Of a stretch of 37,437 nt of DNA, positions 8,854 through 32,623 are shown in pieces. Source of the stretch: Sedimentisphaerales bacterium (GTDB lineage Bacteria > Planctomycetota > Phycisphaerae > Sedimentisphaerales > Anaerohalosphaeraceae); the NCBI GenBank assembly GCA_016926155.1, contig JAFGPC010000054.1, positions 1-37,437 of the forward strand. The letters are read 5' to 3'. The notes beneath the pieces are model-generated. The model saw nothing but the letters and a program-made list of their open reading frames with translations. It was not told the origin of the DNA and did no database searches. Within the stretch, counting starts at the first letter, position 1. Each line of letters starts with the position of its first letter. The translations under genes were made by a program, and so were the position numbers.

Positions 8854-9693
8854 CTAATTCGTATAGCCGGAGTACCAGCTTTTTCGAATGTTTTCACCGG
8901 TCGTCTCAAAGATATGATCGACATGCCCGTCCAGAAACAAGGTATTGACACGACCATTCGGATTGCCTGAAATCTGAGGCACTCTCTGGTCTGCTAAGGT
9001 TGGATCATCCAGGCTTTTGTTCTTTTTGCTGTGGCGAAAGATCCCCCAATAATGGGCTTCTCTGCCGCTTCTGCCGCCGACGGTAGTAGGGCGATAATGG
9101 CGAAGGTTGATACTTTGGCCTTGAGGAATGTAAAACATATCATCCTGCTCCCCGCCGGCACTGTCGCCCTCGATTTTTGGTTCGACGTGATCATGTGTGA
9201 TAATAAATTGGTAGGGCATCCGAATATCACTGAGCTTGCGATTGTATTCGAAGAGGCCGGAGTCTCGAGGATCATGAAAAAAAAAGGAATTCAGGGCGAA
9301 TCCTGCATAGCGAGCAAGCTCAGGATCATAATCACTGTAAAGCAGTTGTCCTACTTTCTGGTAACTGGGACATCCGAATACTGTTGGATCCTCGGCATAG
9401 TCTTTGTATGCCACACCCCAATACGCATCATCGACGTCCGGATCAATATACGTACCGTCCGTGTTGTACCAGAGATAATGATTAGGTCCACTTGAATCAT
9501 ATGCTCGGCCGTCGTTTTGCTCCAGATAAACTAACATTGCGGTCCCGATACCCTTGAGATGAGACTTGCATACCGTGGTCTTGACCGCTTCCTTGGCTTT
9601 TTGCAGGCCGGGGACAAGGATGGCCAGAAGGATGCCGATGATAGCGATGACGACAAGAAGTTCGATAAGAGTAAAAGCTGTCCGTTGTTTCAT
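8854..9693 (-). CDS. Prepilin-like (type II secretion pseudopilin-type) protein, 279 residues
   Basis: The protein starts with a class III prepilin signal, [20 protein letters not shown], in which cleavage is expected before Phe with the conserved Glu at +5. A soluble alpha/beta domain follows, and near the C-terminus is a stretch [16 protein letters not shown] of the H-X9-DG type found in the very numerous planctomycete pseudopilin-like proteins. The ATG at 9693 is used because a longer frame back to 9759 adds 22 residues ahead of the signal and would start at the transcription start of the promoter at 9765-9793. No other secretion genes are nearby, so it may be an independently secreted or fibre-forming protein. 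Confidence 0.87.
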
Positions 9694-9764
9694 GTGCAAG
9701 ACCTTTTCCAAGTCCGAGAATAAACCCAACCCATACGTGGCCATAAACCACCCAACCACATCCT

Positions 9765-13122: not shown

Positions 13123-16100
13123 TCAGACCAGTTCGTCCGTCGATACCTGACCGCCGGACTCATCCGGATTCTCGTCTTGATTGGATTCGCACTTTTCCGT
13201 TGGTTCAATTGGCTGTCTGGGGCGAGGTTGTGGTGTAAGAAACGCATGCAGACGATCCCATCTGTTGTGAATAAAACCGATTCCACCACCAAGTGCCAAC
13301 AGAACACCGAAAAGTATCAGAACGTACCAGAGACTCGAATCGACTTTATGTATTCTTTGACGAGAAGCCCTGAATATCACTTCCATCTCGGCTTCAGGTT
13401 CGACCTGCAAAGGACTATCGAAACGTAATATCTTGCCGGAGAACGGCATTGTGATCTGCAATTGGGCAACCGAACCCTCTGCTGCCTCCTGTGCCCTAAG
13501 AATCCGTTGTGTGATCAATTCTAGGTTCTCATTATCAGCCTGCCCCAATGAACTTTCGATGCGTTCGGCCTGTTGCTGACTGAATTGAACACTCTTGCCA
13601 TCGATAGTGATCATGCCTGCAGCCGCTGCAACGCCGGATGTCTCCTGTCGCAGGCGTTCTCGAGCATTGACCAGCCCCACTTTTGCCTGCTGTTTTAACA
13701 GATTATCAAGATCGACTCGGATGTCTTCATTGAGAGCCCGATTCCCGCGAGAGAAATTATACCCTATGGATAGGGCCCGACGGGCATCGGCCTGACGACC
13801 TTGCTGAGCAAGTTCTTGTGCCAGCCTTTGCTGTTGTTGAGCAAATTGATCATTGGCATTGCTGACTTCGACCATTTGCCTCTCGTAGGACTGCATGTTG
13901 TATCGACGAACCTGCTGATCGACAAGGATATTTTTATCAATGGTCAGCGTCCCGCCAAATTGATCATAGTTGAATCCCTCAGGGATGTAAACGTGCCAGG
14001 TGATCTGTTTAAGCGGAAGGTCAAATCGGGGACCTGCGATCCTGTGCATTCCGGCCCAATCCTCCAAAGTGCCTCCGGTTTGAGCCGCGGGCAATCTGTC
14101 AATATATACCATGTCCACAAGCACATCGTCACTGGTTTGCTGAGGTAACGGAATAAGCAGCACATCTAGCCCCTCAGCATTGGTACGGATGGAGGGTTGT
14201 GCTGACTGCCCATCGACTGAGAGCGACCAGATTGTTCCATTTTCAGGCAAAATTGTCTGGAGGTGACGTTTGGCCCCGACACGCAGCAGAAGGGTAACGC
14301 GATGAATGGCCTGTCCGTCCGGTGTCACTACCGTAGCAATATCCGTTCGACGTACATCCGCTCCAACCTGTTCTACAGCGCCATGACGCCTTGCTTTAAC
14401 AGTCAATCCCTGAGTCGCGGATGTGCTGCGAAAACACATCACCGCGCCGGAAAGATCGCCGGCCCCAAAATATTTTGGAATACTTCTCGCTTCGGCAGGG
14501 CGCAGGGACGCCTCTACGGAATCCAAAGAAAGCTCCACCCGGTCGGTTGCAAAAACGACCATATGTCCTTGTTGCAGATCAACATTGCGGCAACGGATCG
14601 GGATTAACGACACATCGCCGACAGTCTGATCGTATTGCGTTTCGTAACCTATCCGAAGCAGGTATGGCTGGTCGTATATTTTATCCGCCAGATCGATTCG
14701 CCATTGGCCCTGACTAAGCTGTTCTCTTCGGGCGATTCCCGGCCCGCTAATCGTGACTCCAGTCGCTTCGACCGGCAACAATAATTCTATCGTCTTGATG
14801 CCGGCATGAAATAAGCGATATCGCAGGTAGTGGTCGTGGCGCACCAGGCCATCGGTTATTTTGGCAACATGCAGAAACTGAACGGTCACTCTGGGTTGGA
14901 CCAACTCGGTCTGAAGGGCCAGTTCCCAATCGATACGCAACAGTCTAAATGCCAGCAAACCCTGCTCATTCTGTCCCAGTTCAGCAGGATTTACCTCACT
15001 GACACCCTGACGAGATGCCACAGAAAGACGCACGCCCTGTTCGGAACCAATCACAATATATCCTGAGTGCTTGAGCCCTCCCTCAAGAGTTACTCGCGGT
15101 ACGGTCAGACGCTCCGGCATCTGGGATATCGGTTGACTCAGGGCGAGTTTCAATTGGATCGTACCGGTTAATTTACGTTTGAAATGCACTCGTACATTAC
15201 GCTGGCCCGCTTCGTCCGTTTCATCCCAGTGGCTGACTTCTTCACAGACCAGTGTGTCAATATCAAAGCCTTCGGGAATCTGGAGAACAAAATCGAATTT
15301 CCCGGCCTTGGCAATCTCAATGTCCCATTGGCTGTTGTAGACCAGGCGGTCATCCTCGACATTAAACCGGGCGGTTTCCTGACTACGCAGCTCACTTTGT
15401 ACGGCCAGAACCTGAGCTGTTACTACGCCGTCCGGCGAATCAAAACGAAACGCCTGAGTGATTTGCTCAGAAGTAAGTCCCGGTACATTTTTAATCAGTT
15501 TCGCGCTGTCTCGGATGTAATCCTGCACATTCATAGAGGCCGGGTGCTCATCCAGTTGTAGATATACCGACATGTCCGTTGCAAGGCCTATAACACTATG
15601 CTGATTCAGGGCATCCTGAACAATCAGCGGTTTCAGACGCACCGGATAAGGCAAAGAGGCGCTGGCAGACTGGGCCAATAGCATAATTTCATAGACTCCC
15701 GTTACCGCTTGATTCAATCGAACTTCGAGTTCCTGGGTAGCCGGATCAAAACGCCAGCTGCCAATGTGCTGAGCAGTCACAGACGTCACCGTCTGGCCCG
15801 AGGCAATGCGCAGCTTGAGGGTATCAATTTGGCCCTGTGCGATCTGCAAACGTATCGTGTGGTAGACTTGAACGAGTCCCGATGACATATGCGCCAGGGC
15901 CAAATCCTGAGCATAAAAACGGACTTCCTCCTGCGAAGCCTGACGTTCCTTCGGTCGCCAAGTGAATACTGCCTGTTCTCCCGGAACAAACATAGTTTCA
16001 ATCATGGTCTTCTGTTCTTGTATCGTTTGTGTGAGATAGATTGCCCCGGGAGCATCGATAATTACATTCGCATCGGGTATGGTCAGAGTTACGCGGTTGG

Positions 16101-19100
16101 TCAACGCATTCGGCAGAGGCAAACGAAATTGATGCTGATGGTTCTGATCCGTAGGCTCCAAAGGAATTAGGAACGTAGCCTCAATCTCATAGAGGCCTGC
16201 CTTGTCTACAACAATGGTATGTTGATCATCTTCTACTCGAAGGGAAACATTCCTCTGTAGCTCAGGATCAGAAACCAGGACTGCCGATTGATCCAGTAAA
16301 GGAAAACGCGAAGGCGCAATAGTTGAAATCCGTAGTTTATACTTCAGTTCCATAGTTTCGGCATCTGCAGACAGATTACATTCGATTTTCTCGATCATGG
16401 ATTTCTCGCTCATCGACATGGGTCCGAGTGATGCATTAGTACAACCATTCAGAAAAAACGGCAGTATTACCATCAATAATACCGGGATTACTACAGTTTT
16501 AACGGAAACCGAGAGAGAGTGTCTTCGATGGAGGAATACACGACCTGCACACCAGACAACGATTGCCACTGGGATGCCCCAGGTCAGCAAAGTATTCAGG
16601 GAAGGCCATGCAGGGGGTATTCTGGCAGCCATATATAAAGCAGCGGACAAGATGGCAACCATACAGGGCCACCATATCCGCCTTTTCAAAAACATGACGG
16701 CCAAAGAGGCAATCATGATAATGGAAACCATGACAAGACCGGAAAACGTGACGGCTCGCCTCCAGGCGGGGATCAGTTCTGCAGTTACCTGAAGCGCCTG
16801 ATTCGGATCAGAATTTACAGCTTGTGCATACCCAATTGTTGTTACAGGCACAGGTTTACGAACTTGTCCGGCCATGGACGCTCCCACCCCGGCCCAGACC
16901 AGAACCAGAAGCAGGATGGCAACAGCCAGATCCGGCAGCCATTGACGGAAAAAGATCGCACAGAAAATACACAATACAAAAAGGACCGCACCCAATCCCC
17001 ATATGACAGGCTTTTCGATCCATCTTTCGATGGATTTGGTCCAAAGCCGAAATATTTGTTGTGTGATTTCCGCCAAACCGACATGGGACATCGGGCCTGA
17101 TAGTACCTGCATATTGCCGCCACCGGCATGGATCGTCCATTCGTCAGGGGCATTAATCACCCACTCGGCATAATTCACCGGCACAGTACAAAGAGGAGCC
17201 GTCAGATCCAGGTGACGACGCCACCACCCGCTCTTTTCATGTACCTGGCCATACTCGAGCTGGATTGTAGCAGGATCATTCGGATTGGCTTTTCGGCTGA
17301 GCGGAATAAGAAGCTGACCGCTGTTCGTATCGTAAGAGGCAGCCAATCGGGTCTGCTGTTCCCGCCCTTCCTTTGTCTCGATCTGCGAGACAGACCAAAC
17401 ACGGGTATCCGTCGGCATGGTTAAGGAGAGGAACTGACCCGTAGTGTTCTTGACCTTATATCGGATACGGGTAACCGATTCGATGCGTCCGTTGGGATGT
17501 ACGGCAAGTCGAGTCTGGTGCGACGCGATATCGACCATAACCGGTAACAGCCCGCTGCGAGAGTAAGGATCGATACTGAGCATCGCACTATGCGGTTCAG
17601 TAACGTACTTGTACGCGGCCAGAATGGGACTGCTCGTCAGTAAACGATAGTCTCCCGGAAGCTCATCCAACGCAATTTCCAGCAACCCATCGGGATTGAC
17701 ACCGGCGGCAGGCTGTATCTGTAATTTCAAATCGAGATGGCTCGTAACTACGACATAGCCGGTTTGCGCCTGTACATCGCGGCATTGCAGAGCCCCTATA
17801 TGAATGGGTTGCTCGGAGCCATATCGTTGCGTGTAGGTCACAGCCAAATTATAATCACCGATTACTTTGCGTGTCAGCTTGACGATCCAGACATCTTCCT
17901 GCTTCACCCAGCGGCGGACATCACTGCCGACAAATTCCACATTCTCGACACTTTCGGGTAAGCTGAAGCGCAACTCATCCACAGGGGAACCGGTGATGAT
18001 ATAATTCATCACCGCCGAGCCATAGACAAGAGTCTCGCCCACGGATTGCAGATGAAACACTTCCGTCCTTATCCCGGCCGCCTTGCTTTGTGCTGTAAGA
18101 TTCAAAGTCCAGTCGGACTGGCGAAACCGATAGGCATATTGAGCCTGGGAAACCCGCAACGGCACCGAGGCCGTATGAACCTCGCGGAGATTCTCAACCT
18201 GTGGATCCTCTATTTCGATGCCGGTTTCCGCCGCAACGACGACATAGCCTCTATGCGTTTTAGCACCTGTGACTTGCACAGCGGAGATGGTCTGGGATTG
18301 TCCTAACGGTCCATGCCCAAGCTCCAGGCGAAGATGGAGGAGCGCACGACCGATCACCGGTTTACTGAATACAACTCGTACCCTTGTCGAAGAATCCTGA
18401 GCCTGTATTTGGGACAGATGATAGTCATCGACCTGGCTGCCATCTACGGACGCTACTATCATGCCTGCCGGTATAACAATCTCAAGTTCGCGAATCGCTG
18501 CATCTCGTACATCGAGTTCCAACTCCGTATCTATAACAAGATCATCCTCCTTAATCGTAACCGTTAATCGTCCGGTCACATCACAACTAGGTACGATATC
18601 ATCCACGGACAATCGTAGTTGGTAATGACTGCCTGCATAGGTGTAGAAAAATGCTTTCGTGTTTGGAACCAGTCGATCCTGTGTCGTGTCAGCTGCCATA
18701 CGGGGAAATACCGTGGCGTCGATTTGTGTCAAACCTGTTGATTCCAACACGACCAATTGCAGTGCATTATCGGTTCCGACGGCGAGATGGCCGCTTGCCC
18801 GGATTCCACCTGACGATTCAATGGCGGGCACCTCAATCTCGGTCGGCAATGTATCCATACCGGCTTCGGCATGGATTCGCAAACGATACTCTTTTTCCTG
18901 GGATCGGCTGAGCTCAACGACCAGATCGCGCGAACTCCCGACAGCATCCGTAAGTGACCAGGTACGAATATTGTCGCCGTCCAGAGCAGTGATACTCAGG
19001 GTAGAAGGCAGCTTGAAGGTAAGTCTCTCAATCCTGCCCTGGGTAATCTGGAAATCAAACAAGGCGTCAAGATGAAGCAGACCTGCTCTGATATCAACTA

Positions 19101-19716
19101 TCGTGTTGGCGTGACTGGAAAGAACGAGTTTGGCATCGGTCAGTTTTACCTGAGGTTTCCATCGCACAAGAAGCCGCTGATTTGGTCCTAAAATGGCGGA
19201 GATCGTCAGTTGCCCCTGTTCGGTCTGCCGTTGCAAACGCATGGCGCCCGGCAAGTCCACTTCAAGATCCTTACGATCACAAACAAGCTCGATTTTTCGC
19301 ATGCGACCCAAAGGCACCTGCACATCCACCTGCTGCCACGGACTGTTTGGATCAGGCTGAGGTCCTGTGACAAATGTTGTATTGACTTGATATCGTCCCG
19401 CCCTTGAAAAGACCAGGTAGTAAGCCTTCTGCTGTTCGTCATAGTCGAGCTTGTACTCCGTGTTACTCTCGGGAAGTGTCTGTAAAACCGCATCTCCCTG
19501 GATCAGAAGAATCCGTCTGTTACGAGCCTTTGTCTCGGCTTTAAAGCTGAGATTCAACATCAGCTCCTGGTCTTCAATCCGCCCGCTGACGATCACCTCG
19601 GGAATTTCGATTTCATTTACTTCATCGACACCTGTGGGTGTTATCTTCTCCGTCGATGAAGCAATGGAAGCCCATATACAGACCAACAGAAACAGAGACA
19701 TTATTGTATGCTTCAT
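13123..19716 (-). CDS. Giant secreted/membrane protein (2197 residues), two fused paralogous halves
   Basis: Half 1 has a signal peptide (about 1-20), a long beta-sandwich-rich exported region to about 900, and membrane spans at about 903-953, 988-1034 and 1044-1064. Half 2 then opens with VVIPVLLMVILPFFLNGC (1075-1092), a lipoprotein-type signal and lipobox inside the chain, followed by another beta-rich region, a Gln-rich coiled-coil stretch (about 1955-2085), a membrane span at 2128-2151 and an acidic tail. The halves are homologous: PGAMRLQRQTEQGQLTIS...RWKP (156-187) matches PGAIYLTQTIQEQKTMIE...WRP (1222-1255), and FQITQGRIERLTFKLPS matches LQIAQGQIDTLKLRIAS. A strand motif GYVVV or GYIVI occurs at 489, 652 and 1551, with a variant at 1716. 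GAGGATAGGATC precedes the ATG. It follows the VWA gene by 185 bases, so the two are probably co-transcribed. No enzyme motif was found; an envelope complex or sensor role is inferred. Confidence 0.85.
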   Translation of the reverse strand: MKHTIMSLFLLVCIWASIASSTEKITPTGVDEVNEIEIPEVIVSGRIEDQELMLNLSFKAETKARNRRILLIQGDAVLQTLPESNTEYKLDYDEQQKAYYLVFSRAGRYQVNTTFVTGPQPDPNSPWQQVDVQVPLGRMRKIELVCDRKDLEVDLPGAMRLQRQTEQGQLTISAILGPNQRLLVRWKPQVKLTDAKLVLSSHANTIVDIRAGLLHLDALFDFQITQGRIERLTFKLPSTLSITALDGDNIRTWSLTDAVGSSRDLVVELSRSQEKEYRLRIHAEAGMDTLPTEIEVPAIESSGGIRASGHLAVGTDNALQLVVLESTGLTQIDATVFPRMAADTTQDRLVPNTKAFFYTYAGSHYQLRLSVDDIVPSCDVTGRLTVTIKEDDLVIDTELELDVRDAAIRELEIVIPAGMIVASVDGSQVDDYHLSQIQAQDSSTRVRVVFSKPVIGRALLHLRLELGHGPLGQSQTISAVQVTGAKTHRGYVVVAAETGIEIEDPQVENLREVHTASVPLRVSQAQYAYRFRQSDWTLNLTAQSKAAGIRTEVFHLQSVGETLVYGSAVMNYIITGSPVDELRFSLPESVENVEFVGSDVRRWVKQEDVWIVKLTRKVIGDYNLAVTYTQRYGSEQPIHIGALQCRDVQAQTGYVVVTSHLDLKLQIQPAAGVNPDGLLEIALDELPGDYRLLTSSPILAAYKYVTEPHSAMLSIDPYSRSGLLPVMVDIASHQTRLAVHPNGRIESVTRIRYKVKNTTGQFLSLTMPTDTRVWSVSQIETKEGREQQTRLAASYDTNSGQLLIPLSRKANPNDPATIQLEYGQVHEKSGWWRRHLDLTAPLCTVPVNYAEWVINAPDEWTIHAGGGNMQVLSGPMSHVGLAEITQQIFRLWTKSIERWIEKPVIWGLGAVLFVLCIFCAIFFRQWLPDLAVAILLLVLVWAGVGASMAGQVRKPVPVTTIGYAQAVNSDPNQALQVTAELIPAWRRAVTFSGLVMVSIIMIASLAVMFLKRRIWWPCMVAILSAALYMAARIPPAWPSLNTLLTWGIPVAIVVWCAGRVFLHRRHSLSVSVKTVVIPVLLMVILPFFLNGCTNASLGPMSMSEKSMIEKIECNLSADAETMELKYKLRISTIAPSRFPLLDQSAVLVSDPELQRNVSLRVEDDQHTIVVDKAGLYEIEATFLIPLEPTDQNHQHQFRLPLPNALTNRVTLTIPDANVIIDAPGAIYLTQTIQEQKTMIETMFVPGEQAVFTWRPKERQASQEEVRFYAQDLALAHMSSGLVQVYHTIRLQIAQGQIDTLKLRIASGQTVTSVTAQHIGSWRFDPATQELEVRLNQAVTGVYEIMLLAQSASASLPYPVRLKPLIVQDALNQHSVIGLATDMSVYLQLDEHPASMNVQDYIRDSAKLIKNVPGLTSEQITQAFRFDSPDGVVTAQVLAVQSELRSQETARFNVEDDRLVYNSQWDIEIAKAGKFDFVLQIPEGFDIDTLVCEEVSHWDETDEAGQRNVRVHFKRKLTGTIQLKLALSQPISQMPERLTVPRVTLEGGLKHSGYIVIGSEQGVRLSVASRQGVSEVNPAELGQNEQGLLAFRLLRIDWELALQTELVQPRVTVQFLHVAKITDGLVRHDHYLRYRLFHAGIKTIELLLPVEATGVTISGPGIARREQLSQGQWRIDLADKIYDQPYLLRIGYETQYDQTVGDVSLIPIRCRNVDLQQGHMVVFATDRVELSLDSVEASLRPAEARSIPKYFGAGDLSGAVMCFRSTSATQGLTVKARRHGAVEQVGADVRRTDIATVVTPDGQAIHRVTLLLRVGAKRHLQTILPENGTIWSLSVDGQSAQPSIRTNAEGLDVLLIPLPQQTSDDVLVDMVYIDRLPAAQTGGTLEDWAGMHRIAGPRFDLPLKQITWHVYIPEGFNYDQFGGTLTIDKNILVDQQVRRYNMQSYERQMVEVSNANDQFAQQQQRLAQELAQQGRQADARRALSIGYNFSRGNRALNEDIRVDLDNLLKQQAKVGLVNARERLRQETSGVAAAAGMITIDGKSVQFSQQQAERIESSLGQADNENLELITQRILRAQEAAEGSVAQLQITMPFSGKILRFDSPLQVEPEAEMEVIFRASRQRIHKVDSSLWYVLILFGVLLALGGGIGFIHNRWDRLHAFLTPQPRPRQPIEPTEKCESNQDENPDESGGQVSTDELV

Positions 19717-19901
19717 GATCCTATCCTCACTAAGATAAGTATTACAATCCCGGATACAAATCTAATTAAAAGTGCATATCAATATTGGAAAACTATATTG
19801 TTTCTTTCCTCCTTGGCTCTCCTGTTTTCCTGCTCCATTTATATGATAGTTTTAATCCGGTACAAAGTTCGTAAAACTCCTGTAAAATATCCGGACCGCG
19901 G

Positions 19902-22900
19902 TTAAGGCGATTTGGGAAGATTCTCAGACATGCGTATCAGATCCACCAACTCACGCACATCGTGGTCGAGGGGAAGAGCCAGGCTAACCGGCTCTATGAT
20001 ACGCAGGACATCCGATACTGTGGTTTGCCGTGCGTGTTCCGATCCACGAAGAATCTCGGCAAATCGAGCCACACCGGCAGCCAGAAAGAAACGGGGAGCG
20101 CTCTCGACCGTAAGTCTGTCTACGATCATGCTGTTCAAATGGCTGGAAATCTCCTCAATCTGGCCGTTCTCCGCGTTACGGTACCGGACAAATACAGTTC
20201 CAAGGTCATCCTGTCGGTCCGCCGAAGACGAGCCCGTCAGTTCCAACTCGTACAAGGCGGTTGAGCATTGGCCGGAACCCACTTCGCCAGCATCGATGGT
20301 ATCGTCACGGAAACGCTTATCTTCAATGTCACGGTTTTCATAACCGATCAGACGATATCGTCGAACCCGCCTCGGATTGAATTCGACCTGAATGCGAGCA
20401 TCCCTGGCTACGGTCTGCAGAGTGGCTGCCAACTGCTCGACAAACACACGTTGTGCCTGTTCGGTTGAATCGAGAAAAACATAACTGCCGTCACCGCGAT
20501 TGGCCAGGGCCTCAAGAAAGGCGTCGTTATAGGAACCGTATCCCACTCCAACACAGGTAATGGTGATGCCCTGTTTTCGGTCAGCAGCCACCTCGTTCAG
20601 GATTGCCTGGGCTTCCGTTTGACCGACATTGGCAACCCCGTCCGAACAGAGTATGACATGATTGATTTGTTTTGGATCAAAAGTCCGTCGAGCAGTAGCA
20701 TAACCCAATTTCAATCCGGCCAGGAGATTTGTCGAACCGGCCGGCTGGATCGCATCAATTAGGCTACGGATTTTTTCACGTTCTTTTACAAAACTGGATT
20801 CCAGATGCAGTCGGGCATCACCGGCACAGGTGATCAGCGAAATCCGATCATACGCGGAAAGTTTATCTACCAGCAGTCCTAACGCCTTCTGAACCAACAG
20901 CAAACGGTCGGGCTGGCCCATCGACGCAGAAGCATCGACAACAAATACCAGATGGGCGGCCCTGCGTTGATCACGACCGACGGTACGAGCCTTGACACCA
21001 ATCTTAAGCAATGTCAGGTTCTGTCCTTTAGTCGCAAAGGGAGAAGGTGCAGCCTGGGCATGGACCGCGAATGTGGGATTGGATCGCTGAGGATAGTTAT
21101 AGTTGAAATAGTTAATGAATTCTTCCATGCGAACCGCACCCGGCGGGGGTAGAAAACCACCACGAAGATATCTTCGACACAACGTATAGGAAGCCGTATC
21201 CACATCAAGAGCAAAGGTGGATTGAGAATCACGGGCGGTCATTACCCATGGATTGACGGGGATCTGTTTAAATCGTGAGGATTCGGGCAAATCCGAAAAG
21301 TCTTCTTCAACTCCCCGGACAGTACTGTCTGGTTTTGACGGCAAGTTTCGTGGTGAATCAGAATCCCGGAGAATCTCCATTTCAGAAGAACTTGGTTTGC
21401 CCTCAGGCAGCTTTTCCAGACGGTCAAGGCCTTCGCTTTTCTGTTTCCTTTGATCTTCCAGCGATTTTCGTATTTCCTCTTGAGAACCAAATAGATCCCC
21501 CAATACAGGAACATCTCCCAGTATTGGTTCGCGGTCCCTTATCTCAAAATGTTCCGTCTCTCCGACAACGATTGGATCCCCCTCATGAACTGTTTTAACA
21601 GTCTCCTCAGAAGCGGATTTTATCTTGTTAAATTCTCTGTCATATCTCTGGTTTGAGATAACTGAATCTCTTGTGACTCTTTCGCTCATCTCATCTAGCA
21701 GTATTCCATTTCGATTCGAAGTACTGCTTTGCAGACCATACTGCCCGATTCTATCGTGATAAGTCGCCAAAGACGATTCATCAAAAGCCTTGCTTTCAGC
21801 TTTCCAATCGATATCCAGGCTGCCGAGGTCCAGGTCTTTTTGGGCGGGTGTACTCGGTCGTGAAACCGTTTCGAATGACACATCCCTCTTTGTATCGATC
21901 CCCAATCTCTCCCAGCGCCTCCCTATGGATTTCACTGCAGGTTCAATTCCAGAGGACGTACTGATTGGTTCTTCCACGGGAGGTGAAGACAAAGCCAATT
22001 CAGGACTGGAGTCTTCGAAGGATCTTTCCGCCTTTACAGTAGCAGTTGGCAAGTTATGGTAAAAATCTCCCCCATGATGTACCGTAGCAACACTACCATT
22101 AAGAAATAGTTGTGATTCCTGCCCATTAGAACGTATTGATACATCATGACCTGTCCCGGCATTAAAATCATTATAAGACAAAACCGGATTTTTGTCGGAT
22201 GATATATAGCCGCCACCTCCCATACCCATGCCGCCCATGCCACCCATGCCGCCTGCGTTACCCATGCTCTCTCTATAGCCGCCCATTCCTCCCATCATAC
22301 CTCCACCGTAACTGACTGTATCGCCTCGGAACTTTAAATTGAATTCTGTATTATTCACTTGCGAAGCTGATTCATTCGATAAATCGACTGTAGCAGAACC
22401 ACCGACTTCAAATGCCTTCCCCCAATTCTCTCTACCCGATATCCTCCTCTGGGATAATGCAGTTTGTTCAGCACCGACATCTGTTCCTTTTACATCGCCA
22501 TCCCTTACACTCAACCGATCAGTGTCTCCGTCCTGAAGGGAATAATAATCAACCGGATTTATGGGATCATAGGTATATCTACCATCCCTGTCTTCATCTA
22601 TACTGGATGCCGTTGTCCCTCCTGTAAACTCAATTTCGTATAACGTCGGCGCCGATCCGGAAGAGAGAATCATTTTGGATTTTGTACGTCCATTGAAAAC
22701 GATTACTACAGATAGCAAGGCAACAACAAAAATAGCGGCTACAGCCGTTAGTTGTCGGACTGTAAAAATGTTCAGTCTTGCATTTCGTCTGGCGGCCAGT
22801 TTGGCTAATCGTTTTATACGATGTTCGCTCAAAACCGGATCCGGTTCGTGCTGTAAAGTATCCGAGACCACTTTGACCGCCATACGCAGATCCGCCAGGC

Positions 22901-23015
22901 GTTCACGAAGCTCGTCATCGGTCTCTAAATAATTCAACAGATCGGCTTTCGATGCATCATCCAAATCATCAAAGATTAATGCTGATAATATTTTTTCTGC
23001 TTTTTCCCGGTTCAT
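19902..23015 (-). CDS. Membrane-anchored VWA (YfbK-type) protein with anti-sigma-like N-terminus
   Basis: A 1037-residue protein. Residues 1-60 (LSALIFDDLDDASKADLLNY, then LETDDELRERLADLR) resemble the cytoplasmic domain of anti-sigma factors, and one membrane span lies at about 90-108. A long low-complexity linker follows, including a Gly/Met-rich stretch (237-269) and a short PILGDVPVLGDLFGS motif (about 497-511). The C-terminal 450 residues are YfbK-type: an N-terminal segment (STFALDVDTASYTLCRRYL), a VWA domain with an intact metal site (DASAS 694-698, Thr762, Asp792 in CSDG) and a DUF3520-like end (RYRLIGYENRDIEDKRFRDD). The ATG at 23015 is preferred because AGGAG lies seven bases upstream; a frame start at 23036 has none. 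It sits directly after the ECF sigma gene, so it probably restrains that sigma factor and senses something outside the membrane. Confidence 0.85.
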   Translation of the reverse strand: MNREKAEKILSALIFDDLDDASKADLLNYLETDDELRERLADLRMAVKVVSDTLQHEPDPVLSEHRIKRLAKLAARRNARLNIFTVRQLTAVAAIFVVALLSVVIVFNGRTKSKMILSSGSAPTLYEIEFTGGTTASSIDEDRDGRYTYDPINPVDYYSLQDGDTDRLSVRDGDVKGTDVGAEQTALSQRRISGRENWGKAFEVGGSATVDLSNESASQVNNTEFNLKFRGDTVSYGGGMMGGMGGYRESMGNAGGMGGMGGMGMGGGGYISSDKNPVLSYNDFNAGTGHDVSIRSNGQESQLFLNGSVATVHHGGDFYHNLPTATVKAERSFEDSSPELALSSPPVEEPISTSSGIEPAVKSIGRRWERLGIDTKRDVSFETVSRPSTPAQKDLDLGSLDIDWKAESKAFDESSLATYHDRIGQYGLQSSTSNRNGILLDEMSERVTRDSVISNQRYDREFNKIKSASEETVKTVHEGDPIVVGETEHFEIRDREPILGDVPVLGDLFGSQEEIRKSLEDQRKQKSEGLDRLEKLPEGKPSSSEMEILRDSDSPRNLPSKPDSTVRGVEEDFSDLPESSRFKQIPVNPWVMTARDSQSTFALDVDTASYTLCRRYLRGGFLPPPGAVRMEEFINYFNYNYPQRSNPTFAVHAQAAPSPFATKGQNLTLLKIGVKARTVGRDQRRAAHLVFVVDASASMGQPDRLLLVQKALGLLVDKLSAYDRISLITCAGDARLHLESSFVKEREKIRSLIDAIQPAGSTNLLAGLKLGYATARRTFDPKQINHVILCSDGVANVGQTEAQAILNEVAADRKQGITITCVGVGYGSYNDAFLEALANRGDGSYVFLDSTEQAQRVFVEQLAATLQTVARDARIQVEFNPRRVRRYRLIGYENRDIEDKRFRDDTIDAGEVGSGQCSTALYELELTGSSSADRQDDLGTVFVRYRNAENGQIEEISSHLNSMIVDRLTVESAPRFFLAAGVARFAEILRGSEHARQTTVSDVLRIIEPVSLALPLDHDVRELVDLIRMSENLPKSP
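22221..22293. repeat. Short tandem repeat encoding Gly-Met runs
   Basis: Nine-base units close to CCCATGCCG recur several times (clearest at 22225-22253) and encode GGMGGM-type repeats on the minus strand within the linker of the VWA protein. Such tracts can change length by slippage in whole-codon steps. Confidence 0.7.
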
Positions 23016-23080
23016 GACTAACTCCTGATCCGGCATTGGGCCGTGAAGATCTCACCTTTTCTGTATTTCAAAAGAGTCAT

Positions 23081-23695
23081 CTACACCACTCCGGCCTTCC
23101 GTAATCGCTGTGCCAATTCATTCAGTCCCTGGTTCAGCCGATAGTTCACCATTGAAACAGAGATACCAACTACCTCGGCAACCTCCCGCAGAGTCAATCC
23201 CTGGATAATCTTCAGCAATACAACCTGGCGTTGCAGGTCATCCAGTCGGCTCAGTTCCCGAAGGGCTACCTGCCGTGCTTCGCGACGAAGTACTTCCCCA
23301 AGGGCGTCAAACTCATCGGAAACCTGTTCAGCTGAAAGTACATCCGAGTCAACGGTGACCTTATCAAGATATTTTTGCCGTAACTGCCGTCGTCTTGCAT
23401 CAATGGTCAGATTATGAGCCACACGATACAGCCAGGTTGTAAGATTCTTGATACTGCTCGAACCATGACGGGCAACCTGACGATGCAGACGAACAAAAGC
23501 CTCCTGAACGATATCTTCTCCATCCGAGGCTACTCCATCCAGCATACGTCCCACATAACGGAGAAGCGGACTCTGATAATGGGTAACAACCGCCATCAAA
23601 TCACTGGCATCCGGTAGCGGACTGTCCCCTGCGGCTTGTGGTAAAGAAGCCGTCGTGCCTACTGGATTCTTCATTTGGCCCATTCTTTTATTCAC
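23081..23695 (-). CDS. ECF-type RNA polymerase sigma factor
   Basis: A 204-residue sigma-70 family protein with the two domains of ECF factors. Region 2 holds DGEDIVQEAFVRLHRQ (58-73) and TWLYRVAHNLTIDARRR (87-103), which bind core polymerase and the -10 element. Region 4 holds LDDLQRQVVLLKIIQGLTLR followed by the helix-turn-helix EVAEVVGISVSMVNYRLNQG (171-190) that reads the -35 element. The frame opens with GTG at 23695; ATG codons at 23683 and 23674 are alternatives, and none has a clear ribosome site. The next gene, 65 bases downstream, encodes a membrane protein with an anti-sigma-like N-terminus, the usual sigma/anti-sigma order. Target promoters are unknown. Confidence 0.9.
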   Translation of the reverse strand: MNKRMGQMKNPVGTTASLPQAAGDSPLPDASDLMAVVTHYQSPLLRYVGRMLDGVASDGEDIVQEAFVRLHRQVARHGSSSIKNLTTWLYRVAHNLTIDARRRQLRQKYLDKVTVDSDVLSAEQVSDEFDALGEVLRREARQVALRELSRLDDLQRQVVLLKIIQGLTLREVAEVVGISVSMVNYRLNQGLNELAQRLRKAGVV

Positions 23696-23784
23696 CGTAT
23701 ATATAGACGATAGGATTGCAGTATTTTGTAAATTTAAATAGAACTTTTCTCTACCTTTTTTTTAATACTTTTGGGTTGCCCCAC

Positions 23785-23803
23785 GGCGGTTTTTAAGACC
23801 GCC
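23785..23803. repeat. GC-rich hairpin at the edge of the integrase remnant
   Basis: GGCGGT (23785-23790) and ACCGCC (23798-23803) flank a 7-base loop, and AGGCGGC follows, giving an alternative pairing. There is no T-run on either strand, so it is not a clear terminator. It lies just where recognisable integrase sequence begins. Confidence 0.35.
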
Positions 23804-27260: not shown

Positions 27261-28073
27261 TTAGCCAGAGGGAATATCCAATTCGGATACTGGCTCAAAT
27301 CCTTTGTGCCAGATAAAAGACCAGACTTTCTCCAAGCGGGTTTTATCAATGTAAATCCCTTTGAAGAGAATATTAATCGCCCGACCGTGTCGCATGAGAA
27401 GCAGACGCGGAAGAGCCGTGCCCATCCGATAGGTTGCACCTGGATAGCCTGCTCCGTGCAGGTCCATGAGATCTGGAGCGCGACTTGCTTCCGCACTTTC
27501 CGGCCAGGCATCTACCCAACCGCCATCCGCTATCAACGGAATATCACTTCGTGCTTGGTCATATTTGTAAAAGAAACGATCGTCCGTACTGTTGCTCCTC
27601 TCTTGCATCCATCCGTTCAGAGTATAACTTCCTTCATGATCTCCACCGCCTGTTGGATCACTGATGCTTCGCCAGTGCCAGGACTCATCGGATGTTCCGT
27701 AACCGAAGCCGTCACCATATCGATCTGCCCATTTCTTGGTGGCAGGACAATTTAAAATCTTCATCACACCGCTGCGCGAATCTCCCTTGCCTTGAGCAAA
27801 AAGATCATCATCAAAGTAGGGTGCGATCTGATAGAACCAGAATTTGCCTTGGTCCCATTGTGCCGAAGAAGCGTACCAAATATTCCTGTTGTCGTTGTCT
27901 TCAGCATAAAAATACCAGGCCAGCCCAAATTGCTTGAGATGAGCGGCACAGGTCATAGCCCTTGTCGCTTCTTTTGCCTTGCGCAGAGCCGGTGTCATTA
28001 TCGCAAGTAAGATTCCGATGATGGCAATGACAACAAGCAATTCGATCAGCGTAAAAGCTCTAAATGGCTTCAT
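27261..28073 (-). CDS. Prepilin-like (pseudopilin-type) protein, 270 residues
   Basis: The N-terminus [20 protein letters not shown] is a class III prepilin signal (Phe +1, Glu +5). The globular part carries a mid-chain [20 protein letters not shown] segment typical of planctomycete pseudopilin-like proteins, and the C-terminus reads [19 protein letters not shown] and then [15 protein letters not shown]. Where many relatives have DGHVD or DWSVR after ILF, this one has KGIYIDK, so the usual Asp-Gly/Trp is missing. The ATG at 28073 is preferred over 28079 and an in-frame TTG at 28088 because GGGGG lies eight bases upstream. It is a paralogue of the gene at 8854-9693. Its neighbour is a secreted glycosidase, so a link to polysaccharide use is possible. 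Confidence 0.85.
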
Positions 28074-28562
28074 TTGCATCGCCCCCAAATCCGAGGAACA
28101 TGTTCTCTTGTTAAAGATAAAAGACCTTAGTTCCTAATATATTTTATAATAACAAACCCGTCTAATATTGTAAACTCAATTCCTTCCATATCAAAGCATA
28201 CTACAAAACAGTCTTTCCAGAATAATATTATTTTCCAACAAATTCATTTCGCCAGCCAATTTTCTTCTTGACAAACAGTAAAAAAGAACTGAACATGTTT
28301 AATATTAGCCATAATGGCAAATAGAATGGAGGAAGAAATTGCGGGGATGGTGTTATGAATGGCCAATGGGGCAGTGTGTTTTTATGCCACCTTATTTTCA
28401 CGAATGGCCTTTTGCATAAATTTCACTACCTTTTATCTCAATGTTTTCCAGTACATTTGCCAATGGCTTCATTCAACAAAAACCGTCCTCTTTCAACTCA
28501 TCAAGACAGTAGGGAAGAAGCATCATAAACATTTACAAGACTATCTTTGTGGAGGTAGAAGT
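28074..28562. other. Divergent intergenic region with repeated GAACATGTT sites
   Basis: This 489-base AT-rich stretch separates the prepilin-like gene (-) from the surface-protein cluster (+). GAACATGTT occurs twice, at 28096-28104 (as the perfect palindrome GAACATGTTC) and at 28291-28299. A consensus TTGACA stands at 28268-28273, but no good -10 lies at the right distance. An open frame continues upstream of the 28563 start to 28359 with low-quality sequence; it is not counted as coding. Confidence 0.5.
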
Positions 28563-30587
28563 ATGAATGGTCTAATAAGTACCAGGAGCGTGTTAGCCTG
28601 CATGGTCGTGACTGGAATTCTAGCAGTCGCGGCACCGACATTGGGTGAATTGATCCATGCAAACGGCAATGTAACGCTTGTTGCAGGCTCGGAGTATTTC
28701 CCCGTTTCACAAGCCAGTGACGGTGATCCAAGCACCCAGTGGGTAACAGAGGATCCGGGCGGGTATCCCTCTGACTACTTCGATTATGGTCCTGTTCCTG
28801 TGATGGTTATGGATCTTGGAGAGGATGTCGCCCTCGATGCTGTTGCATTCTGGGGGTATGGAATATCCGGCAACAGCACCTCCGAGTTTTCCCTTCGTTT
28901 TGCCAAGGAAGCAGATGGTATAGGCTCCTGGCAAAGTTACAATCCCACATTCCATACGGGACCCCAAGGAAACAGCGTGCAGCAGAATTTTCCCTTTGGT
29001 CTCATTGTCCTTGCTCGTTATGTTCAGGTTACAGTAAGTGATAATCATATTGAAACTCCTCCAGGTGGAGATCGTGTTGGCTTCGGAGAGATTCAATTTA
29101 ATAAGACCGACATAAACATAGCGCATTTCCCCGCTCCTCCTGACCAGTCATCAGGAATCAACCCTGATGGTATACTGCTGAGTTGGGATGCTGCCGGGGA
29201 ATCCAATCCCTCCGACCCCAATGTGCTGGTTCCCAATCCGGGGCTTCTCCGACACGAACTCTATCTGAGCAGCGGCAATCCGGAGGATCCCAACGTCTTG
29301 CTTTTAGATACAATCGCGGCAGGTAATCCCATCGCAGCCCGGGTTGAATACGGCCCCTTGAATCTGGATCGTGATGGAACCTACTACTGGCGCGTGGATG
29401 AAGTGATTCGAGATCCCAATGGCATGGAGATGGCTCATACAGGGGATACCTGGATGTTCCAGACACTTCCTTCCAATCCGGAGATTCTTTCAAATACGCC
29501 TGCTGATACATTGGCAAGCCTTGGTGGGGATGCCACATTTACAATATTGGCTACAAATCCCTTCCTTGGAGATGAGAGCGGTTTACGTTATCAATGGTAC
29601 AAAGTCAATCCCGACGGAGACGATATCGAAATGGGAGACGATTCTGCATTGTTGACCATTTCGAATGTTACTGGTGATGATGAGGGGCAATATTATTGTA
29701 TCGTAACCATTATAGATCCGGACGTCCAGACATGGACTATATCACGCCAGGCAAACCTTGTACTTAAAAAACGGATTGGGTATTGGCCGTTTGATGGCGA
29801 TGCGACCGATCTGGATTTCGGCAATGACGGTTTTATAGGAGGTGGTACGCCTGACTTTACGGCACAGGGAGTCGTCAACAACGGACTGGCTGTTCAATTT
29901 GACTCTGCCAGCTCTGAGTTCATTCAGATTGCCAATGACAACCTGCAATGGAGTCCAACCGGCAGTTTTTCAGTAAGTATGTGGGTCAAGGCTACAGGAG
30001 GAAGCGGCCATAGAGCTCCGATCAGCAACCGGCATGAACCGCCGACGCAAGGATTTATTATCTACGATGAACCGGGTAACACGTGGCAATTCTGGAACGG
30101 TCATGGAGGCGCTTCCGGCTGGAATACTCTTCAGGGTCCCAGTGTTGTTAATAATGAATGGACGCATCTGGTCATCACATGTGATCCGACGGGAATATCC
30201 GAGAACGTGGCTTCGGATGATATTCCTATTCTCCTAGCAACAAAAAGGCTCTATGTCAATGGAGAACTCTATGACGAACAGCAGGATATTGAGTATAAAC
30301 CAAAAAAGACGGGAACCAGTGATCTGTTCATCGGTGCCGGTCAAAATGAAAATCCAGCCAACTTCTTCTTCCATGGGCTTGTCGATGATGTCCGACTCTA
30401 TAACTATCCCATTGAAGACGTGAAAGTTGCCCAGTTGTATACGGATGTAATGGGAGGAGCGGTTTGTGTTGAAAGCCTACGACCTGCCTTTGATCTTGAT
30501 CATGACTGTGAGGTGACATTGACTGACTTTGCTATCCTGGCCGAGAATTGGGCTGTCTGCAATCTTGTGCCTGCGGATAATTGTCCC
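28563..30587 (+). CDS. Surface protein: discoidin-like, Ig-like, LamG and dockerin-like domains (675 residues)
   Basis: Signal peptide (about 1-27) followed by a discoidin (F5/8)-like N-domain (GNVTLVAGSEYFPVSQASDG, GGDRVGFGEIQFN), a fibronectin-like segment ending in YYWRVDEVIRDPNG, an Ig-like domain (GLRYQWYKVNPDGD, EGQYYCIVTI) and a LamG/concanavalin-like domain (IGYWPFDGDATDLDFGNDGF to HGLVDDVRLYNYPIED). The C-terminus is dockerin-like: FDLDHDCEVTLTDFAILAEN. LamG and discoidin domains bind glycans or surfaces. The ATG at 28563 has GGAGG eight bases upstream and begins the signal peptide, whereas an in-frame ATG at 28359 adds a nonsensical leader. It is the first of three tandem genes that share this N-terminal half. 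Confidence 0.86.
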
Positions 30588-30658
30588 TAAAGCAATAGGA
30601 AACAAAGATCAAAAAGTGATTGAAACCTGATGCAAAAAGCGAAGGAAAGGTAAACACA

Positions 30659-32623
30659 ATGAAATTTCAAATAAGCAGAAAACGGTTTTCAGGTATCATA
30701 TCAGCCTGGATTGTCTTGACGGTTGCCCTGTTATGTACCGGCGCAAAAGCCGAATTAATCCATGCCGGAGGCAATGTCACTTTGATTGCGGGCTCACAGT
30801 ATTATCCTGTATCTCAAGCCAGTGACGGCAATCCCGCTGCTACCTGGGTCACGGATGCTCCGTGCGGAGGTTCTGCAGACTATTTCAACTGTGCGAGCGC
30901 CCCAATTCCCATCCTGCTCATCGACCTCGGCTCCGATGTTGTTATGGACGCCATCGCATTTTGGAATTACGCTAGCACCAACGCTAATAATGTGACAGAG
31001 TTTTCGCTGCGTTTCGCTACGGATGCCGACGGACCCGACAACATAGGTACTTCGATCGGTTATAATCCCGTATTTACTACGGATGTCCCCGGCAATGAAA
31101 CCCAGCAGGATTTTGCCCTTGAGACAATTATCGTAGCTCGGTATGTCGAATTTACCGCCACAGACAATATGTATGGCGGCGCTCTTCCCGGAGGAGATCG
31201 TGCAGGATTCGGAGATATCCAGTTCAATGTTGTTAATCCGGACAAGGCATGGAATCCTTATCCCGGCCATGAAGCCAAAGACATTGGCAGAAATATCACA
31301 CTTCAATGGAATGCCATGGTTGATCCCAATACGAGTGAGCCGGTTCTATCTTTGCTCGAACACGTACTCTATTTTAGCAATGGGGATCCTGCCGATGCCA
31401 ATGTAGCAGAATTGGCAAGAATCCCCGCGGGAGATCCCATTGCGGCCCAGGCAGAATATGGTCCTTTGAGTCTGGAATTCGGGAAAACGTATTACTGGCG
31501 CGTCGATGAAATCACAGACTCCAATACAATTACCGGTGATCTCTGGTCCTTCCAGACGGTTCCTGCCGAACCACTAATTACTCAAATGCCGCAGGATCTT
31601 TTAGTCTTTGAAGGTGAAACGGCCTCCTTTGAGGTATCTGCGATAAATCCCTACTCCTCTGATAGCGATGGATTGATGTATCAATGGTACAAGGTAAATC
31701 CCGGCGGGGACCTCCCGATGGGAGAGGATTCGCCAGTGTATTCCATTGCATCGGTCAATAAAGAGGAACATGAAGGACAATATTATTGTGTGGTCACAAT
31801 CGTCGATCCCGACGTAAACACGACTTCTACATCGATTACGGTTACCCTAGTCACCAAACAATTAATTGGGCATTGGCCTTTTGACGGGAACCTGAACGAT
31901 GAGGTGGGTGGAAATGATGGTGTTTTCACAGGAGTTGGAGATCCCAGTTTCGAAACCGGAATCGTTGGAGAAGGGCAAGCGGTTGTCTTTCCGGCCGGAG
32001 GATCGCCGGTGACTGTCCCGACAGCGGCTCATATTTATGCCGCATGGACGTTGAGTTGGTGGGAAAACAGCGATCCTGATGCGGGAGGTGTCGGAACATG
32101 GGAAACAATGATTGGGTGTGGTGCAGGCCCAGACGGCTGGGAAATTTTTGAATTTGGCCGTTTGGATGGAAGGCGCTATGCGTTTGGCTTCAACATTGGC
32201 GGCAGTTATCAATATACACCGGATGATGACCGATATCCACGGGATCATTGGCATTATCATGTCGTTAGCTTCGATCCTACCACAAATACGGCAAGCTGGT
32301 ACATAGATGGCCTGAAGTATACCGATAATACAGGAGTCAATTTTACCGTGTTCGATGAAGACTTCTATATTGGTAATGTTCGAGGAGGATCTCAACCCTA
32401 TACCGGATGGATTGATGATTTGAAGCTCTATAACTATCCCTTAGATCCTTTTGAGATTGCCGAAGCATACACGGCGGAGATTGATACTATATTATGTGTT
32501 TCTCCGATCGCAGGCGATGTAACTGGACCGGAAGGAATTCCGGATTGTACAGTCAATATGCTTGATTTCGTTCTTTTTGCTTCACAATGGCTGGATCATG
32601 GATACCTTCCGGATCGTCCCTAG
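30659..32623 (+). CDS. Surface protein: discoidin-like, Ig-like, LamG and dockerin-like domains (654 residues)
   Basis: A close paralogue of the preceding gene with the same domain order. It has a signal peptide (about 1-31, ending CTGAKA), a discoidin-like domain (AGGNVTLIAGSQYYPVSQAS, GGDRAGFGDIQFN), a segment ending YYWRVDEITDSN, an Ig-like domain (LMYQWYKVNPGGD, EGQYYCVVTI), a LamG domain (IGHWPFDGNLNDEVGGNDGV to YTGWIDDLKLYNYPLD) and a dockerin-like end (DCTVNMLDFVLFASQWLD). AAAGG lies eight bases before the ATG at 30659. It follows the first gene by 71 bases and is probably co-transcribed with it, ending at the terminator at 32700-32744. Confidence 0.86.
   Translation: MKFQISRKRFSGIISAWIVLTVALLCTGAKAELIHAGGNVTLIAGSQYYPVSQASDGNPAATWVTDAPCGGSADYFNCASAPIPILLIDLGSDVVMDAIAFWNYASTNANNVTEFSLRFATDADGPDNIGTSIGYNPVFTTDVPGNETQQDFALETIIVARYVEFTATDNMYGGALPGGDRAGFGDIQFNVVNPDKAWNPYPGHEAKDIGRNITLQWNAMVDPNTSEPVLSLLEHVLYFSNGDPADANVAELARIPAGDPIAAQAEYGPLSLEFGKTYYWRVDEITDSNTITGDLWSFQTVPAEPLITQMPQDLLVFEGETASFEVSAINPYSSDSDGLMYQWYKVNPGGDLPMGEDSPVYSIASVNKEEHEGQYYCVVTIVDPDVNTTSTSITVTLVTKQLIGHWPFDGNLNDEVGGNDGVFTGVGDPSFETGIVGEGQAVVFPAGGSPVTVPTAAHIYAAWTLSWWENSDPDAGGVGTWETMIGCGAGPDGWEIFEFGRLDGRRYAFGFNIGGSYQYTPDDDRYPRDHWHYHVVSFDPTTNTASWYIDGLKYTDNTGVNFTVFDEDFYIGNVRGGSQPYTGWIDDLKLYNYPLDPFEIAEAYTAEIDTILCVSPIAGDVTGPEGIPDCTVNMLDFVLFASQWLDHGYLPDRP

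Follow-up and report, generated by a model that had tools for sequence, protein, structure and literature searches.

An ECF sigma factor, a membrane anti-sigma factor with an extracytoplasmic YfbK-type VWA domain, and a giant exported membrane protein are encoded by three adjoining genes in the 37,437-nucleotide stretch of planctomycete DNA analyzed here (the window), and their assignment to one cell envelope signaling module is well supported, as is the pairing of the first two as an ECF sigma factor and its anti-sigma factor. In part of the PVC bacteria, this module probably constitutes an autoregulated envelope-signaling operon in which the VWA protein reports on the giant protein and which serves as a homeostat for it. 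An ECF sigma factor that is held by a membrane anti-sigma factor and controls its own operon is the ordinary part of this arrangement; less ordinary are a VWA domain as the sensor and a giant protein as the fixed partner.

The cell envelopes of planctomycetes and their relatives are unusual, and these bacteria possess many ECF sigma factors with no assigned input. The module offers a concrete input protein family, with YfbK-type VWA proteins as anti-sigma sensors, together with a fixed and very large exported partner, and thereby a likely function for some members of the YfbK-type VWA family, which is large and so far unexplained. It also places repeats resembling M1 N-domains and ribophorin in bacteria, in a large envelope protein without catalytic parts. 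To our knowledge, an anti-sigma factor with a YfbK-type VWA domain and a conserved giant protein as its partner has not been described. Searches of open-access papers returned nothing relevant on VWA anti-sigma factors and no account of one with such a partner; the main ECF classifications lay outside this search, so the sigma group may already be listed there.

Conserved order and joint inheritance of the three genes

The open reading frames of the sigma factor (positions 23081 to 23695), the VWA protein (19902 to 23036), and the giant protein (13123 to 19716) all lie on the minus strand, as the first-pass annotation had described. The spacing that it gave is also right: 185 bases separate the VWA gene from the giant gene, and the 65 bases between the sigma and VWA genes hold if the VWA protein begins at its second methionine (MNREKAEK; residue 8, position 23015), which is the likely true start and the point at which the alignable N termini of its relatives begin.

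The same annotation had proposed that the three genes form a unit, and gene order across the PVC phyla backs this proposal. Among 294 genomes of the phylum, we found ten full-length relatives of the giant protein (about 28 to 41% identity) and many weaker ones, and the sigma, VWA, and giant genes occurred in the same order and on the same strand in every case with enough contig. A wider scan, covering 84,980 species with one genome per species and best matches only, with weak relatives outside its reach, yielded 75 loci in Planctomycetota, Verrucomicrobiota, Lentisphaerae, and Kiritimatiellae. The VWA gene precedes the giant gene in 50 of the 50 loci with an intact giant start and at least 1 kb of upstream sequence, and where 5.5 kb or more lies upstream, the VWA and sigma genes both precede it in the same order and on the same strand (39 of 39 loci). 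This arrangement is far beyond chance, and the synteny check that had been suggested as a way to refute the trio left it standing. In 20 of 42 loci, the end of the sigma gene and the beginning of the VWA gene share 4 bases, and no further flanking gene was conserved around the trio in the loci compared. Genes at these loci were identified by profile searches; a simple gene caller misses genes in GC-rich loci, where long antisense frames occur.

Pairwise tree distances of the giant and VWA proteins were strongly correlated (Spearman coefficient = 0.971; the best of 999 permutations reached 0.198), and those of the sigma factor correlated with those of the other two proteins at 0.76 to 0.78, with permutation maxima of 0.20 or less. 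Such agreement indicates joint inheritance, not contact. The trio is accessory, with a full or nearly full giant in only four sampled genomes of the window's family, the window's own included, among the best matches. At two loci (L039 and L042), the sigma factor beside the VWA and giant proteins is only 22 to 28% identical to that of the window and is of a different lineage, as if the sigma factor had been exchanged while the VWA and giant proteins stayed. Many sigma-VWA pairs occur without a giant. One of them lies in the window's own genome (L034, contig C134), where it is followed by another ECF sigma gene, and a frequent second arrangement without a giant consists of a sigma factor, a membrane VWA protein, and a VWA lipoprotein (L186, L187, L188, L189, L190, and L192).

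The sigma factor, its predicted promoter, and the VWA anti-sigma factor

The sigma factor (204 amino acids; 23081 to 23695, minus strand) had been read as a member of the ECF group, and profile matches bear this out. Only regions sigma2 and sigma4 are present according to Pfam and NCBIfam, as is typical of ECF factors (Sigma70_r2, E value = 9.5e-14; Sigma70_r4_2, E value = 5.6e-11), and the NCBIfam sigma70-ECF model (TIGR02937) scores above its cut-off. Upstream, footprinting with relatives delineates a -35-like element, ACAAAA (23724 to 23729), and, 14 nt farther on, a -10-like element, CGTCTA (23704 to 23709), both on the minus strand, giving the layout ACAAAA-N14-CGTCTA from 23729 to 23704. 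The relatives share the A-rich -35-like element and the CGTCTA element; the counterpart of ACAAAA is GCAAAT in L107, L111, and L115. Of all 6-mers ahead of the sigma gene, CGTCTA occurs most often, in 13 of 21 planctomycete loci, compared with a mean of 7.1 and a maximum of 9 for the top 6-mer in shuffled sequences, although such counts are somewhat inflated by the relatedness of the sequences. In Verrucomicrobia, TCTAAG was found in 12 of 18 sigma upstream regions and CGTCTA in 7 of 18, and neither was found in any of those from Kiritimatiellae and Lentisphaerae. The footprint delimits a conserved, predicted ECF-type promoter with a CGTCTA -10 element ahead of the sigma gene. Since this element ends 8 nt ahead of the GTG start, the mRNA may be leaderless. 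An inverted repeat (GGCGGTCTTAAAAACCGCC) lies at about 23785 to 23803, about 90 bases upstream of the sigma start.

It had been suggested to look for a shared ECF-type promoter motif both ahead of the cluster and elsewhere in the genome; the footprint provides the former, and the motif was not enriched in the latter. In a regulon search based on one strict motif, the window's genome contained 3 matches, compared with 19 for the reversed control pattern, and only the operon's own match precedes a gene, the other two being badly placed. Allowing two mismatches gave 272 matches, compared with 374 in the control, and the motif was likewise not enriched over the reversed-pattern control in seven related genomes. 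A single well-placed match suits a local circuit.

The VWA protein (1,044 amino acids; 19902 to 23036, minus strand) was proposed to be an anti-sigma factor with its VWA domain as the outer part and an anti-sigma domain in its first 60 residues. The former proposal is supported, and the latter is weak in the window copy itself but clear in its relatives. The window N terminus has no Pfam match, and its best match, to the anti-sigma model NF052375 (E value = 3e-5), falls below the cut-off. In contrast, zf-HC2 scored above its gathering threshold in 6 of 10 tested N termini of related VWA proteins. These relatives open with the pattern C-x(n)-H-x3-C-x2-C, with which the window copy aligns while lacking the Cys and His residues (residues 8 to 62; 22851 to 23015, minus strand), and the zinc motif is present in 20 of 61 VWA proteins. 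This mixture matches that published for class I anti-sigma groups, which combine members with and without the Hx3Cx2C zinc motif and have variable outer domains (PMC7406223). The prediction that the VWA N terminus is a class I anti-sigma domain whose zinc residues were lost in the window copy is well supported, and the gene lies beside its ECF sigma gene, as is characteristic of this class, at all 39 loci. A single transmembrane helix follows (residues 96 to 116; 22689 to 22751, minus strand; hydropathy, 2.52), and the succession of cytoplasmic N terminus, one helix, and linker is common to the 28 proteins measured. Among other planctomycete VWA proteins sampled, sigma-adjacent copies have a cytoplasmic N terminus and a transmembrane helix, whereas unlinked copies mostly carry a lipoprotein signal; some sigma-linked copies have an N terminus whose shortness or poor calling prevents a judgment.

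The ectodomain (19929 to 21281, minus strand) combines vWF_A, VWA, and YfbK_C (Pfam E values, 6.7e-26, 1.3e-15, and 8.5e-35, respectively), the architecture that defines YfbK-type proteins together with a DxSxS...T...D metal site (MIDAS). The site is intact, as had been claimed, and its residues D701, S703, S705, T769, and D799 are invariant in an alignment with 13 relatives.

Between the helix and the ectodomain lies a long extracytoplasmic linker of low conservation (about 470 amino acids; 21282 to 22688, minus strand). Linkers have a median length of 512 residues in the 28 proteins measured and are rich in disorder-type residues. In the window, residues 470 to 524 (PILGDVPVLGDLF; 21465 to 21629, minus strand) resemble a secretin signature (Pfam Secretin, E value = 3.7e-4, below the cut-off); a true secretin domain was rejected, as the match is below the cut-off and covers a short tail only (profile positions 98 to 155 of 169). 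About 10 of 97 VWA proteins, spread over three phyla, have a linker with the signature peptide P-x-LGD-x-P-x-LG-x-LF, the position of which varies (the window, L104, L107, L117, L142, L145, L151, L153, L161, and L170), and the strict form of the peptide was found in 6 linkers, in 0 of 200 shuffles, and in 0 of 99 giants. Other VWA anti-sigma linkers (L043, L034, L041, and L038/L056, assigned partly by eye) contain different inserts: FecR (in L043), F5/8C, TPR, and an STN-like stretch spotted by eye. From its sequence, the linker looks as if it were a slot for exchangeable sensor parts.

Architecture of the giant protein

The giant exported membrane protein (2,197 amino acids; 13123 to 19716, minus strand) is a single-copy protein in its own genome and has full-length orthologs. 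Hydropathy analysis indicated a signal sequence, a central cluster of transmembrane helices (residues 904 to 1088; 16453 to 17007), and a C-terminal helix (residues 2131 to 2149; 13270 to 13326) followed by a short charged tail. No significant family match was obtained in Pfam or NCBIfam, and no sequence relative was found among solved structures in the PDB; a Pfam match to Zot (E value = 0.077) was at chance level and was rejected.

What had been called a giant beta-rich protein can be described more precisely as two copies of a five-domain unit with a fold akin to that of M1-aminopeptidase N-domains and ribophorin I. The first unit spans residues 35 to 862 (17131 to 19614; AlphaFold2 pLDDT, 85.7), and the second spans residues 1128 to 2122 (13351 to 16335; pLDDT, 86.1), with a conserved helical insert in the last domain (residues 1941 to 2079; 13480 to 13896; model helices 814 to 952; conserved pattern NEDxRV); all of these features are on the minus strand. 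Profile comparison of domain slices paired the halves collinearly from N1-C1 to N5-C5 (HHalign probability, 99% or more), and therefore the giant represents a tandem duplication of the five-domain unit. Domains 2, 3, and 4 are in turn repeats of each other. The models of the halves have pTM values of 0.38 and 0.45, and relative domain placement in them is unreliable. At least five modeled domains share the fold of M1-aminopeptidase N-domains and ribophorin I, with single-domain matches at Z scores of 11 to 13, rmsd values of 3.1 to 4.4, 147 to 178 residues aligned, and 4 to 17% identity. Three domains of the first unit match the LTA4H N-domain (Z score of about 11.5, rmsd of 3.4 to 3.9, and about 155 residues aligned); the second unit matches M1 N-domains (Z score of 13, rmsd of 3.1, and 152 residues aligned) and, over two domains, ribophorin I (Z score of 14.9), the large rmsd of the latter match arising because the two domains are placed differently. 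The catalytic motif HExxH is absent from the window giant and from 41 of 42 giants.

A signal-peptide-like junction, FLNGC, follows the last cluster helix and ends at Cys1092 (16441 to 16455, minus strand). Among 52 orthologs, this junction has a strict lipobox in 14 and Gly-Cys or AxA-type sequences in many others, a pattern that suggests internal processing near Cys1092. In other planctomycetes, giant units are separate neighboring genes, with the sigma-VWA pair ahead in some cases (L083 to L086 and L088). Giant-type units also occur without a nearby sigma or VWA gene (L045 to L053), and the giant family therefore has a role outside the circuit. Arrays of two or three unit genes (about 1,130 to 1,470 and about 2,700 amino acids) with no sigma or VWA gene nearby were observed at L050, L051, L052, and L053.

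Proposed circuit and alternative explanations

Judged from sequence, the trio conforms in every testable feature to the ECF sigma/class I anti-sigma type. Like SigW/RsiW, SigK/RskA, and RpoE/RseA, it has an overlapping two-gene order, an N-terminal anti-sigma domain with or without zinc, a single transmembrane helix, a variable outer domain, and an ECF-type promoter ahead of the operon. In contrast to these systems, a long linker carries a YfbK-type VWA domain as the outer part, and the operon has a giant protein as its fixed third member, a combination for which we found no counterpart among ECF/class I anti-sigma systems in the open-access literature searched. YfbK-type VWA proteins (PF12450, VWA, PF12034), named after Escherichia coli YfbK, share the complete domain set and the intact metal site, but here an anti-sigma domain and a transmembrane helix replace the lipoprotein signal and a sigma factor adjoins; the lipoprotein layout in this comparison is that of unlinked planctomycete copies, not of E. 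coli YfbK. The giant's domains share the fold of the N-domains of LTA4H and aminopeptidase N and of ribophorin I/Ost1 (Z scores of 11 to 15). Unlike M1 aminopeptidases, however, the window giant strings about ten beta domains together in one chain without HExxH, and with ribophorin I/Ost1 it shares the fold alone, without a Pfam or PDB sequence match; by these features, it is a member of neither family. By analogy, the module would work like FecR-type cell surface signaling, which joins an outer protein, a periplasmic anti-sigma part, and a cytoplasmic sigma factor in one pathway, although, unlike in FecA/FecR/FecI, the window protein has no FecR match and the operon lacks a conserved TonB-dependent receptor.

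In the circuit that we propose, the cytoplasmic class I anti-sigma domain would keep hold of the sigma factor. When the VWA domain, which would engage by means of its metal site, reported a change outside the membrane, the sigma factor would be freed, through either protease cleavage of the anti-sigma factor or a change of conformation, and would transcribe its own operon. The state of the giant protein (free, occupied, or misassembled) is the most likely thing to be reported, and the circuit would then act mainly as a homeostat for a giant structural or scaffolding protein. Contact between the VWA and giant proteins and a circuit that mainly controls the giant are among the inferred parts of this scheme. 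The first-pass annotation had likewise allowed for a VWA domain that binds the giant or another ligand outside the membrane, and such a trans-envelope ligand sensor stays putative. Several observations argue for it: the fixed order (50 of 50 and 39 of 39 loci), which in its sigma-VWA-unit form is also kept where the giant is split into unit genes (L083 to L086 and L088); the 4-base overlap; zf-HC2 in the relatives; the tree agreement of 0.971; the CGTCTA footprint; the mostly lipoprotein nature of unlinked VWA proteins; the mix of zinc and zinc-less anti-sigma domains; and the absence of any other conserved flanking gene. Weighing against it are the sigma factors of different lineage at L039 and L042, the giant units without a sigma or VWA gene (L045 to L053), and the many giant-free sigma-VWA pairs, given which the VWA protein can serve other signals.

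These last observations lead to the main rival, a possible but clearly less probable explanation in which the pair senses some other outside cue (a ligand, peptidoglycan, or a secretin-type outer membrane complex), while the giant, never touched by the VWA protein, is no more than a regulated output. The commonness of pairs without a giant and of giant units without the pair would suit this explanation, as would the highly variable linker with its differing extra domains (FecR, F5/8C, TPR, and the secretin signature); yet if the giant gene were simply an output, it should have left the pair in some lineages, whereas the order is fixed at 39 of 39 loci and the giant and VWA trees agree at 0.971. 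It is quite unlikely that the giant is instead the signal receptor of a wide envelope stress regulon controlled elsewhere in the genome. Control of several genes is usual for ECF systems, and the regulon search was confined to one strict motif, but this motif was not enriched over the reversed-pattern control in the window's genome or in seven relatives. That the VWA protein is no anti-sigma factor at all and its neighborhood incidental would agree with the lack of a Pfam match at the window N terminus, but this notion is very hard to reconcile with the synteny at 39 of 39 loci, the overlapping frames, zf-HC2 in the relatives, and the differing N termini of sigma-linked and unlinked copies. 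In a more far-reaching scheme, which we regard as unlikely, cleavage of the giant at the junction would leave two halves that are held in the membrane and build a scaffold across the periplasm. The VWA domain on its long tether would grip an acidic residue, either in this scaffold or, by way of the linker's signature peptide, in a secretin-type complex; the ECF sigma factor would then read scaffold integrity directly, through an integrin-like metal-site sensor of envelope integrity.

Elsewhere in the window, two adjoining related proteins (28359 to 30590 and 30620 to 32623) contain F5/8C, Ig-like, and Laminin_G_3-type domains, and two others (27261 to 28088 and 8854 to 9759) cluster with pseudopilin-like proteins, a family that is frequent around these loci.
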